Positions 37,401 through 43,400 of a DNA stretch of 64,000 bases are shown here, in pieces (positions within the stretch are counted from its first letter, which is position 1; every line of letters starts with the position of its first letter). Made by a program: the position numbers and the translations under genes. The DNA comes from Arenicola marina. Its lineage: Eukaryota; Annelida; Polychaeta; Arenicolidae. A model generated the notes under the pieces. It had not been told where the DNA came from, did not search any database, and saw nothing but the letters and a program-made list of their open reading frames with translations. Where the stretch lies: NCBI GenBank assembly GCA_964019135.1, contig OZ025256.1, positions 17,119,911-17,183,910 on the forward strand, given 5' to 3'.

Positions 37401-40400
37401 ATCTCCCATATAATCACTGATTTTCGGTGGGCGAGTGGAACTATCTGAGTGTGTTATGTACTTGTAGTGTACAGTAACCTTTGATCCCTGTGATGCCAGG
37501 GGGGCCTCCCTGGTGTAGTGGTTAGCACACTAGACCGCAGATCAATAGGTCCTGGGTTCGAATCCGGGCTCGGGCACCTAATCTGGGGCATGTTTCATTC
37601 CTTCATCCTTCATCGTCTCGGGAGGTTCCTTGGCCCAATTTAGCCTGTATGTGCACAAAAGTGGCCTAAAACACCAACATTCCATTCCTGTGATGCCAAC
37701 AAATAGGTAACTAATATAGGGGGACCCCCCTGGTCGCACCGGTGTAGCGCACTAGGCATCAGATCAGGCCCTGAATTCGACCTCAGGCCTGGACACCTAT
37801 TCTGGGGCTTGCTTTATCCATTTATCATTCATCTTCCCGAAAGCCGAAAACACCCAACTTTCCTATTTCATATTCCCTGAAACCTGTAGCTTCACAGGTT
37901 AAGGTGTCGTGCCAGCGTTGCAACCAACCGAGGGGTCACCCAGTGGCCTAGTAGGGAGCTTTGGCAATTGTCGATTGTGCTCTGCTAGGCTATCCCAAGC
38001 AGCCAGGGCGTGGCTCGAATCCCACCTGCGCAAAAGTGTCCAGGACCCGGATCCCATATCTTTCTTCGCAAAGGGTAGAGCACATGGCTCCTCTCCTCCT
38101 TGACCCCTTTCGTTGTCGCTATATGACCTGCACAGAGTTAAAGCACCTTACATGTATATCTATCCTGCTATGAAACCAACCGAGCTTGCACTCTGTACTA
38201 TGGTTGATGCCTGCGATTTAATATTCCACGCCATAAGATTTTTCCCTATTACTTTTTACGGTGGAGAACGCATGCGGAGAAGCGCTTTGATCTTCCGTCT
38301 TTCATTGATTTGATATAGATTTTCATGCTTTAGCAACGTGAATGTACATTGCCATTGACCACTCGTGTACTTGCCGGCTGGTATAACACTGGTTTCACTA
38401 GGTGCAGTTTACCCCCCCTGTTACCGCGACCTGCACCCAGGTTCTTAGTTAGTGACATGCTGTATATTGTATGGATACAACAACGCTTACTTTTACATGC
38501 ATTGTCCAGCTTTTTCTACACTTTTTGATGTAAGGTATAAAGATATATATATATATATATAAAAGTGCTTCGTGAGTGGCGATACATTTATGAATAGAAC
38601 TTTTGTATTCAACTGATAGGGAAAGTAAATATATATATGTAAGTGTTTAATAATGGTTATTACTCGTGGTTTTCATGATATTGAAGTTAAGTTGAGAGAT
38701 TTGATTGTGAATATTTTGTGTATATATATGGTGACCTTTTTGCTTACTGTAGTTCCGCGTTTAAAAAAAAAAGGAGTAATATCGTGAATGTTTAGACCAC
38801 ATGTTGCACCGACCACTGGTGTTTGATAACGAAACAATGCACTAGACGACATTAGTCTGGTCTATATATTATCTGTATCGAGATACAAATTCGAATTAAA
38901 TTAAAGTGGTCGGTTAGACGTGTAATCACAATGACCTACTTATCGTATGAATATAAGACAATTTGTTCTATATAGAGAGTGCATCTTTATAATTTTTCTG
39001 CGCAATTACTTGTTTATCTACGTAAAATATCTTCTTAAATTGACTGCCATGTTTTTGTGCTTCACATGAATGTTATGTATCGTCGGATTTTGCTCTCTGT
39101 GACTTGTTGGTGGAAAGTGGTTTTTGCGGCATAGCTGATGGTTAGAGTGACCTTGACCTTGACTCGCGTAACCCTTATGTTGGCGAGACAGACCCGGTTC
39201 GCTGCACTACCAATGACCACCTCCACCTGCGCATGCCCCAACCTCGAACCCCTCCCCCCACACACGAGCCACCCCCACCCCCACTCCCGGGGCTTTCCAA
39301 CCAGCGCTCACCCCCTGCCCACGCTGGACCCCATTTAGTACCTCCCTCAACCCGAGCTACCCCCCCCCCCCCCCACAACCACCCCGTCAACTAGCCCGGC
39401 GGCACCTACGAAATTATCTATCACATCTACGATCAAGTCGGTGACACCCGAAGGAATGACCCCTCGCGACCTAGAAACGTACTTCCTTTCATTGTTGCGA
39501 CTGGTTGTGACCTTTATACCCACCCACCGCCACCCGCCCACCCACCCACCCCCGCCTGTCGACAGACCAAGGCCCAGGTGATGCCCACCCAGGGGGTGTG
39601 GGATATGCGCTGTAAACACTTCTACAACGGCATGGAGATCCGGGTCTGGGCCATCGCCTGCTTCGCCCAGCAGAGAACCGTCCGTGAGGATGCCCTGAGG
39701 TAACCCTCCACCCCCCTCCCCCCCCCAACCCCCATCCCAACCCCGCCTCTCCCTGCCCTCTTCCTCTCCCGCCTCCACCATCCCCACCACCCCTACCCGT
39801 CGCTCTCCACGCGGCCACACTGGGATGGTATCCCTTTTTTATTTAAGATTCCTTTTTCTTGCAGTTAACGGTTCCGTACTCACAATATTGTATGCGTTTC
39901 GTTCGCAGGTTACCTGAGGCTTTAATTAACCTGACACACAACAGACTTTCACCTCGCTGATGCACTACACATAACTAAAAGTCCATGTTTGAGTTATGCA
40001 AGGGCATAGTTTGTGGGTGTTAACGCATATTAAAGATAAGATGACTAACCTCACATCTTAAGTGCCTCACACGTCTGTCCCTGACACTCCTATAAGACTT
40101 CTTCCTGTTGGGTAGTTCCCATAGCAATACGTATTGTAAGCTTCTTAGGGGGCGGGGGGGGGGGGGGGGGTGGGGGGCGGGATGTAATTATTACTGGATT
40201 AGATGATGTGGTAAATTTAATCGATGATGGAAGTTAATTTGAAAGCCAAGGACGAATGGTAATGTTAAGTTTCAAACCAAGGACGAATGGTGATCGAGGA
40301 AATTTGCCGACCGTCTTAGCGGAAGCCAGCTCGTTCCTTCCCAAATGGTTTCCCTCTTAAGGGAAGGCTGCCATAGACAGATTCGATGATTTTTTTTTGC

Positions 40401-43400
40401 TACATACAGAAGTACGCGACGCCCAAGCTGTCAACGGGTCCTCCCGTTTGCCCAGTGGGTAGCGCGTTCGGCTTTGGTCCAGTTTGCAGAATAAAGATCC
40501 CATGTCGTTCTTCGCCAAGAGTAGGGGGTTACTTCCGGAGAAATGGCTCCTCTCTACCTTTAACCTTCCCAATGTCGCGATATAACCTACAGAGTTTAGA
40601 AGCGTCCTACTTGAATCAACCAACCCAGAATGCCACACATAAACCCCAGATAAGACACGTTAGGAACACCGTGTGGATAATCTCGCTTTCAGGGTGTTTT
40701 TGTCTCCGATGTCTGGTTCCCTGGATGGATCCATTGGACGGATCGTCATCCGGATCGTCATCCAGACGCCCCATGGCCTCGCACTCTCATGTATGTCTCG
40801 GTCTCCACGCCGGTACCATGGTTATAATGACGTTACTCACTGTCATATTGTGTCTCCCCACTTCCCTCCCATCATCCCACCCCACCAACCCGCTGCCCTT
40901 CTCGCTTTGCCATGGCTGCGCAGACCAAGGCCCAGGTGGTGCCCAACCAGGGTGTGTGGGACATGCGCGGCAAGCAGCTGTACCAGGGCATCCAGATCAG
41001 GGTGTGGGCCATCGCCTGCTTCGCCCCCCAGCGGACCGTCAACGAGGAGGCACTTAGGTACCGACCCGGCCAGGCCAGACCCCTGCTGCCACCCACCCCA
41101 CTCCCCCTACGTCACCGCCCCCCCTTCGTGCTTCCCATGTATAGCGCTTGAATTGTGGTGCTTTCCTCGGAGCGTACTTTGTATATCCTCTATTCTTATG
41201 ATGTTGTTATCTTCAAGGACATCATATCTCTACTTTATAGTGCTTCACTTGGTGTGCTTTCCTCGTAATTCCATGTACTTTGTAATTCCTCTATTCTTAT
41301 TATGTTTTTATCTTCAAGGACATCATATCTCTACTTTATAGTGCTTCACTTGGTGTGCTTTCCTCGTAATTCCATGTACTTTGTAATTCCTCTATTCTTA
41401 TTATGTTTTTATCTTCAAGGACATCATATCTCTACTTTCTAGTGCTTCACTTGGTGTGCTTTCTTGTAGTGGTGTGGTTTGTAACCCCTCTATTCTGCCG
41501 AATGCTATTGATAAACTTAGTATTTGGCCACCCCTACGGGACACGGTCTCTGTTTCTTAAGGTGTAGTTTAACACTCTATATCATCAAATTGTTATCATA
41601 TGTCTGAGTCTTTCTGGAAGTATACCTGGTGAGGGATATCTCTGACGGTCGAATAGCATCCATTGTGAGATAAATTTGTATGGGCACTATTTTTTTTGGT
41701 GCAGTGCCGAATTGTCTTCGAAAGCATTGTCCTGACATAATAATTTTTGCCAAGGCATGAGGACAAAAAAAAACTTTTCAAAATGCTTACAAAACATTTT
41801 TAAGTGTTCTACTTTTTTTCATATTCTTCTTTCTTCTTTGTTTATTTTATATATTATTTATATCTTGCTTTTTGGACGGGTTAGTTTGGGGGGGAGGGGG
41901 GTCGCGTATGCAAACACCACCACATTATGCGTTACTAATATTTCTCATGGGGGAAACTATTTTGTATTATAAGGTCCGCGCTTTGATTGTTCTGTTTGGC
42001 TGCACTCTGATCGCATGGGTTTGACGCCAGTACTAGATAAGATCTGTGAATACCACGTCGCCTAGGCCTCTGCGCATTCTGGCGACGTGCCGTGTCTTGA
42101 TCGTTTATAACTTTTCTTGTCCTTAAGATGTTTAATAACCCTATATAAGCGAGGATTTTCATATTAGCGTAGTGTGGAAGTGAACTTTACCTTGGATATA
42201 CTCCTTATGTAGCTTTAATAACATATATAAATACGATATAAAAATACCAAATGTATGCTGGTAAATTTGCTTCAACGGGTTAAGATTAACCTGTCTTGTA
42301 AAGACTCTATTAGAATGCACTTCCAACGACGTAACCTACCGTCCTAATGCTAATCGCGACTCCGTCCCCCTCTCAGGACGTTCACCCAGCAGCTACAGCG
42401 GATCTCCAACGACGCCGGGATGCCCATTATGGGGCAGCCGTGCTTCTGCAAGTACGCGACGGGGGCCGACCAGGTGGAACCCATGTTCCGCTACCTGAAG
42501 AACACCTACCCGGGCCTGCAGCTCATCTGTGTCGTGCTTCCTGGAAAGACACCCGTCTATGGTCAGAGAATTTTTCTGTTTTCGGTTTTTGCCATGTTGG
42601 GTTGAAGCCATGTCGTGTGTAGCTATAGCAAGAGCTGTTGGACACGCATATGTATATATATATATATTGTATACATACAGGTAGTGTTATGAGCAGAAGT
42701 CGGGGATGTCATTTAATTCTTCGTTTTAAGGGTAGGAGACATTTTTGCATTTATGTAAAACAATTTTCATCTAGGCAACACATGTATTTTGCGGGAGAGC
42801 CTCTCTAGCTCAGTTGGTACGCACTCTGAGCGGCAGGTCAACAGGTCGTAGGTTCGAACCCGGGCAGGGAGCCCTTCTAGCTAAGTTGGTACGCACGCTG
42901 AGCTGTAGATCAACAGGTCGTAGGTTCGAACCCTGACAGGAGTCTCCCTAGCTCAGTGGGTAAGCAGGCTGAGCGGCAGGTCAACCGGTCGTGCTTCGAA
43001 CCCTGACAGGGAGCCTCCCAAGCTCAGTTGGTAAACAGGCTGAGCGGCAAGTCAACCGGTCGTGGGTTCGAACCCTGACAGGAGTCTCCCTAGCTCAGTG
43101 GGTAAGCAGGCTGAGCAGCAGATCAACAGGTCGTGGGTTCGAACCCTGAGAGGGAGTCTCCCTAGCTCAGTTGGTAAGCAGGCTGAGCGGCAGGTCAACC
43201 GGTCGTGGGTTCGAACCCTGACAGGGAGCCTCCCAAGCTCAGTTGGTAAGCAGGCTGAGCGGCCGGTCAACCGGTCGTTGGTTCGAACCCTGACAGAGAG
43301 CCTCCCTAGCTCAGTCGGTAAGCAGGCTGAGCGGCAGGTCAACCGGTCGTTGGTTCGAACCCTGACAGAGAGCCTCCCTAGCTCAGTCGGTAAGCAGGCT

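Follow-up and report, generated by a model that had tools for sequence, protein, structure and literature searches.

The diversity of Argonaute proteins is usually credited to gene paralogues and to modification. The vertebrate AGO1 to AGO4 are similar Argonautes which differ at few residues of the L2-MID region (AGO3, for example, has Thr instead of Pro at 458) and they are encoded by separate genes, whereas the gene of the polychaete Arenicola marina described here is a single one with exon copies. It lies in the window, by which the whole stretch of 64,000 nucleotides that was analysed is meant (contig OZ025256.1, or C9, positions 17119911-17183910, in a genome of 867 Mb and 762 contigs). 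Its exons are named E2 to E21, a numbering of this analysis, and three of them, E12, E13 and E21, are present as two copies. The reading that we favour, with some reserve, is that a single AGO-clade gene acquired these three pairs by independent duplications, that one copy of each would be chosen by splicing and that the choice would tune the time which the protein spends on its target.

Several Argonautes from one gene have been described in other animals. In shrimp Ago1A, Ago1B and Ago1C are presumed by the authors to arise by alternative splicing (PMC3510085). They differ by an 81-nt fragment added in PIWI and by 9 nt at the 5' end, and no homologous exon pair is described in the available part of that paper. 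CSR-1A and CSR-1B of C. elegans and the short isoform of Drosophila Ago2 are also isoforms of one Argonaute. The Drosophila isoform is described as lacking the N-terminal domain, and exon duplication is mentioned neither there nor for CSR-1 in the abstract openings. The clusters of mutually exclusive exons treated by Hatje et al. (2017, PMC5740500) resemble E12 and E13 in that internal exons lie next to each other and their splice sites are compatible, and in E13 a frame shift would enforce the choice. The pairs found here are additionally homologous and of equal length. E12 differs in being without frame enforcement, and terminal pairs such as E21 are treated apart in that paper; its main text contains no word starting with 'AGO'. 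Among the papers listed by searches of an open full-text library none dealt with exon duplication in an Argonaute gene, to judge by titles and abstract openings, and such isoforms may be annotated in databases. One snail entry bears the name 'Protein argonaute-2-like isoform X1'.

The E13 pair encodes the segment from L2 to MID and was the only one noticed in a preliminary description of this DNA, where the copies were called 16a and 16b. The coordinates of E13a (39566..39699, plus strand) and E13b (40924..41057, plus strand) and their length of 134 nt were given there exactly, and both exons are flanked by AG and GT. The sequence and a check of the frame also bear out the identical phases, as both copies enter at phase 0 and leave two bases of a split codon. 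The exon number 16 could not be reproduced, since ten coding exons were resolved before the duplicated ones and the first exon (exon 1) was not found in the window. E13a and E13b differ at 26 of 134 nt (81% identical) and 11 of the 44 whole codons change the residue; the earlier figure of 11 in 45 is obtained when the split Arg codon, which is identical in both copies, is counted. As had been pointed out, 134 is not a multiple of three and only one copy fits the reading frame, so that the inclusion of both or the skipping of both shifts the downstream frame and stops appear.

A chance origin of this pair can be excluded. Exactly 134 nt stand between AG and GT at 410 places of the window, counted on both strands and with the two copies included, and besides E13a itself the best match to E13a among them is E13b, with a BLOSUM62 score of 179, against -12 for the next one. 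The two exons are neighbouring, internal, homologous, equal in length, provided with compatible GT-AG sites and enforced by the frame, and thus show all the features of mutually exclusive exons that could be checked here on DNA. Moreover, at the 11 differing sites the human AGO1 of the PDB alignment has the residue of E13a at four, that of E13b at six and neither at one (our own count). As the agreement is split in this way, each copy seems to have kept residues lost by the other and neither would be simply decaying. It is highly probable that both E13 copies are coding and alternatively used.

The frame shift could also have another explanation, namely that the pairs are real and E13 serves mainly for unproductive splicing, the level of Argonaute being set by the decay of frame-shifted mRNAs. 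The stops brought by both double inclusion and skipping speak for this, as does a weak donor of E13b. However, a poison exon is under no need to preserve the protein that it encodes, and both copies of E13 look constrained and retain different AGO1 residues. In addition the in-frame E12 pair and the E21 pair would be left unexplained, and we regard this explanation as unlikely.

The switchable variants from one locus that the preliminary description suggested have a candidate anatomy in this gene, with both copies looking selected as coding, but the suggestion was understated, there being three pairs and not one. The two further pairs are revealed by tblastn with human AGO2 and involve the preceding L2 exon (E12) and the last exon (E21). 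E12a (35177..35299, plus strand) corresponds to residues 383-423 of human AGO2, and E12b (35795..35917, plus strand) is its second copy. Both have 123 nt, lie in phase 0-0 with GT-AG sites, as tblastn and the frame check indicate, and are 74% identical; 5 of the 41 residues differ. As this length is divisible by three, the frame remains open when both copies are included, and exclusivity would need a cause other than the frame. Except for frame enforcement, which is one possible rule and not a required one, E12 shows the same DNA-level features of mutually exclusive exons as E13. It is for this pair that we hold most firmly that both copies would be coding and alternatively used.

E21a (54802..54910, plus strand) and E21b (58223..58331, plus strand), identified by tblastn and the frame check, each possess an acceptor, complete the frame and end in their own stop. 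The C-terminus and the greater part of the eukaryotic insertion are encoded in them, and they differ at 15 of 35 residues. This pair is one of alternative last exons, and the coding and alternative use of both copies is quite probable. AATAAA occurs at 56334, after E21a, and at 58661, after E21b; with eight AATAAA in this stretch of 12.3 kb chance matches are likely. The order a-b, a-b, a-b along the gene and the unequal synonymous distances suggest that the three pairs are separate duplications. When the gene model was compared with the window by tblastn, with the known exons masked, the best 14 matches contained no additional exon copy and consisted of a second print of E21a, weak matches in a tandem array between E14 and E15 (E about 1) and, at E 1.6, the end of E4 that occurs in several copies. 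The 4 kb to the right of the window gave repeat-like matches only, the best with an E value of 0.037 among the matches listed.

The whole gene spans 26742-58331 of the plus strand, as delimited by tblastn with human AGO2 and a check of the splice sites. Ten coding exons, E2-E11 (26742..33065, plus strand), encode the common 5' part with N, L1, PAZ and the start of L2; they are followed by the tandem internal pairs E12a/b and E13a/b, by the seven coding exons E14-E20 (42377..51722, plus strand) of the common 3' part, with the rest of MID and PIWI, and by the last exons E21a/b. AG precedes and GT follows every internal exon. All eight combinations of the pairs are open for 847 residues (without exon 1) and a stop, and all six Argonaute domains of Pfam (N, L1, PAZ, L2, MID and PIWI) exceed their cut-offs. 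The MID region matched 38 PDB sequences. None of them is a Piwi protein, and the top 29 bear the names argonaute-1 to -4, with E values down to 5e-87. The closest solved structure for this region is argonaute-1, presumably of human origin. On this comparison the gene is an AGO-clade Argonaute, nearer AGO than Piwi. The aligned exons contain the predicted slicer residues D597, E637, D669 and H807 (in GADVTHP, HRQEI, YRDGV and YYAHLV).

This appears to be the only locus of its kind. When the genome was searched with the part of the model that runs from E7 to the end (596 residues; E <= 0.001), 21 matches were obtained, 17 of them at this locus, two on contig C11 and two on contig C4, and the five matches of the 251 preceding residues are all at this locus. 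The four matches outside it represent three loci, and one exon of each has Piwi as its best match among solved structures. A search of the genome with this model thus revealed no second locus of the AGO clade, although a strongly diverged or unassembled one could escape it. Two Piwi-like loci of C11 (24898500-24901000 and 24959000-24961000), separated by about 60 kb, share pieces that are 87-92% identical and are probably a Piwi duplication. Each of the 35 mollusc genomes covered by one survey had at least one AGO of the miRNA type, some had two, and the siRNA type was found in none (PMC12479628). Pattern scans beyond this genome yielded two loci in viral contigs, with 16 residues matched and judged to be chance, and 30 matches in genome contigs, none of them a relative.

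E13a and E13b look like old coding copies, because the flanking introns no longer align, their ratio of nonsynonymous to synonymous distance (dN/dS) is about 0.22 and the agreement with AGO1 is divided between them. By the NG86 method dN and dS are 0.143 and 0.659 for E13 and 0.271 and 1.549 for E21; for E12 dN is 0.084 and dS is saturated and not computable. Within 400 nt on each side no similarity was found between the flanks of E12a and E12b or of E13a and E13b, nor downstream of the E21 copies, and upstream of these, where the gap-free sequence of the left contig was used, there is only one non-collinear match of 13 nt (E 0.005). A neutral simulation was run 8000 times, in which one copy drifted and the other took synonymous changes only. 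As few residue changes as observed, with no stop, were reached in 0 of 8000 runs for E12, in 2.6% for E13 and in 4.7% for E21.

These results bear on the idea that each pair contains a relic, a single copy being spliced and the other being a decaying duplicate. The modest outcome of the neutrality tests for E13 and E21 (P 0.026 and 0.047) would be in keeping with it. Nevertheless, all six copies have intact splice sites and neither stops nor frameshifts despite high or saturated synonymous change, no neutral run attains the conservation of E12, and the retention of residues is complementary at E13; the idea is about as improbable as that of unproductive splicing.

The second copies could also be thought to be an artefact of the assembly, in the form of uncollapsed haplotypes or misjoined contigs. 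The only run of N in the window is a scaffold gap at 54559-54758 (200 N), with a print of E21a to its left and another to its right. About 500 nt are duplicated around this gap (54056-54555 and 54760-55246; 97% identical, with 2 mismatches and 12 gap openings), and the repeat is read as an unmerged contig overlap, so that E21a is one exon printed twice, the left print, from 54098, having indels. The overlap accounts for this extra print only. The copies within the pairs differ at 26% (E12), 19% (E13) and 32% (E21) of sites and their flanks are unrelated, which rules out duplication by haplotypes or by the assembly as the source of the pairs. Moreover the genome searches recovered 16 of the 17 common exons, all of them solely at this locus (E11, with 48 nt, gave no match), and E21a lies on both contigs of the overlap, which ties E21b to the Argonaute gene. 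An artefact of this kind therefore receives almost no weight.

The positions of the residue changes were expressed in human AGO2 numbering, which agrees with M437, K440, I477, R479, D480 and A481 as named in eLife 07646. E13 covers residues 424-467 and two bases of the next codon, and its copies differ at 429, 431, 439, 441, 442, 444, 446, 447, 458, 463 and 465. The pocket for the t1 adenosine is situated at the L2-MID interface and includes M437, K440, I477, D480 and A481; a key water is held there by M437 and K440 through their main-chain carbonyls (eLife 07646). Residue 439, Cys in one E13 copy and Gly in the other, falls between these two residues of the human pocket. The same paper gives 'Asn-429' and Arg-479 as pocket residues that differ in worm ALG-1/2. 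We suspect 'Asn-429' to be a misprint for 439, since human AGO2 has Thr 429 and Asn 439; both 429 and 439 differ between E13a and E13b. The preliminary description stressed a Gln in 16a in place of a conserved Pro. The Gln is indeed present in E13a, at 458, but the Pro is not invariant, given the Thr of human AGO3, and the importance attached to this change is not supported.

E21 starts within the codon of residue 824 and the eukaryotic insertion extends over about 820-837, with S824, S828, S831 and S834 (eLife 76908, PMC9154749). CK1-alpha phosphorylates S828 first and then S831 and others, which promotes target release, and neutralising 821, 823 and 826 together left phosphorylation unchanged (PMC9154749). 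All four serines are kept in both E21 copies. E21b has two extra serines (832 and 833) and is without an acidic residue at 826. The E12 copies differ at 390, 400, 402, 403 and 404. In human cells the binding of LIMD1 requires S387 (PMC5507773), and as the position of this serine is occupied by Asp in both copies this site is not what differs in E12.

Splicing would pick one copy of each pair. At E13 the wrong combinations would be frame-shifted and their mRNAs would decay, enforcing the choice, at E12 exclusivity would be reached through a mechanism other than the frame, and at E21 each copy would terminate the protein with its own stop codon. The choice at E13 may alter, through residues 429 and 439, what surrounds the pocket in which the target base facing guide position 1 is held, and that at E21 the serine-rich segment whose phosphorylation by CK1-alpha releases targets. 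Splicing could thus set the residence time of Argonaute on its target. That E13 acts on anchoring and E21 on release is put forward tentatively. A wider proposal is somewhat more doubtful still, namely that the animal makes up to eight Argonautes, with splicing setting t1 anchoring (through E13, and E12 in the same linker) against phosphorylation-dependent release (through E21), and that exon copies take the part which gene paralogues have in vertebrates.

Candidates for a switch were sought around the pairs. The intron between E13a and E13b contains a run of 17 G at 40154-40170, and C-rich tracts surround both exons. The computed duplex energies between the G-run and the tracts are strong. 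Their pairing was rejected as a switch, the fold of 39550-40240 having a z of -0.89 and 3 of 20 shuffles folding at least as well. Steric exclusion between the copies is unlikely with intervening introns of 495 nt (E12) and 1224 nt (E13), and the use of different spliceosome types is not suggested, all sites being GT-AG. TGCATG, the Rbfox motif, is absent from 33066-42376, and Rfam gave no matches in 26000-60000 at gathering scores. The intron between E13a and E13b also harbours an interspersed repeat at about 40477-40638, with at least 43 other matches in the genome.

The choice of one copy of each pair by splicing is argued here from the pairs themselves, the compatibility of their splice sites and phases, the eight open combinations and signs of coding constraint, all of which can be read in the sequence. 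Several points weigh against it. The DNA is that of one species alone, the computed RNA structure around E13a hardly beats shuffled sequences and no switching mechanism was found. The donor of E13b is the weakest of the 21 scored, with 5 of 9 consensus letters. The neutrality tests of E13 and E21 are moderate in strength and the three tests are uncorrected. Furthermore M437, R438 and K440 are the same in E13a and E13b, and an effect of Cys or Gly 439 on the pocket is a guess, because the contacts of M437 and K440 are made by the main chain and both residues are unchanged between the copies.

If the choice of exon copies does occur, this gene would be a natural experiment on separately tunable parts of Argonaute, the t1 pocket region and the segment for CK1-alpha-dependent release. 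The rules of miRNA targeting could then vary among the tissues of one animal, and surveys that count AGO genes would underestimate Argonaute diversity.

Repeats are found within the gene and outside it. At 27838-28151 there are six tandem copies (at most one mismatch each) of the 3' end of E4, including the AC-GT at the donor; the exon itself ends with the first copy, and the other five could be decoy splice donors. In the intron between E14 and E15 about 37 units, each of 72 bp, form a tandem array (42797-45458); they look tRNA-like by eye, and ARAGORN, with bacterial settings, reported no tRNA in the window. Long tandem repeats occupy 1-4875 (units of 42 and 82 bp), 5334-6298 (32 bp) and 8810-11864 (34 bp), and the long open frames within them are probably made by the repeats.

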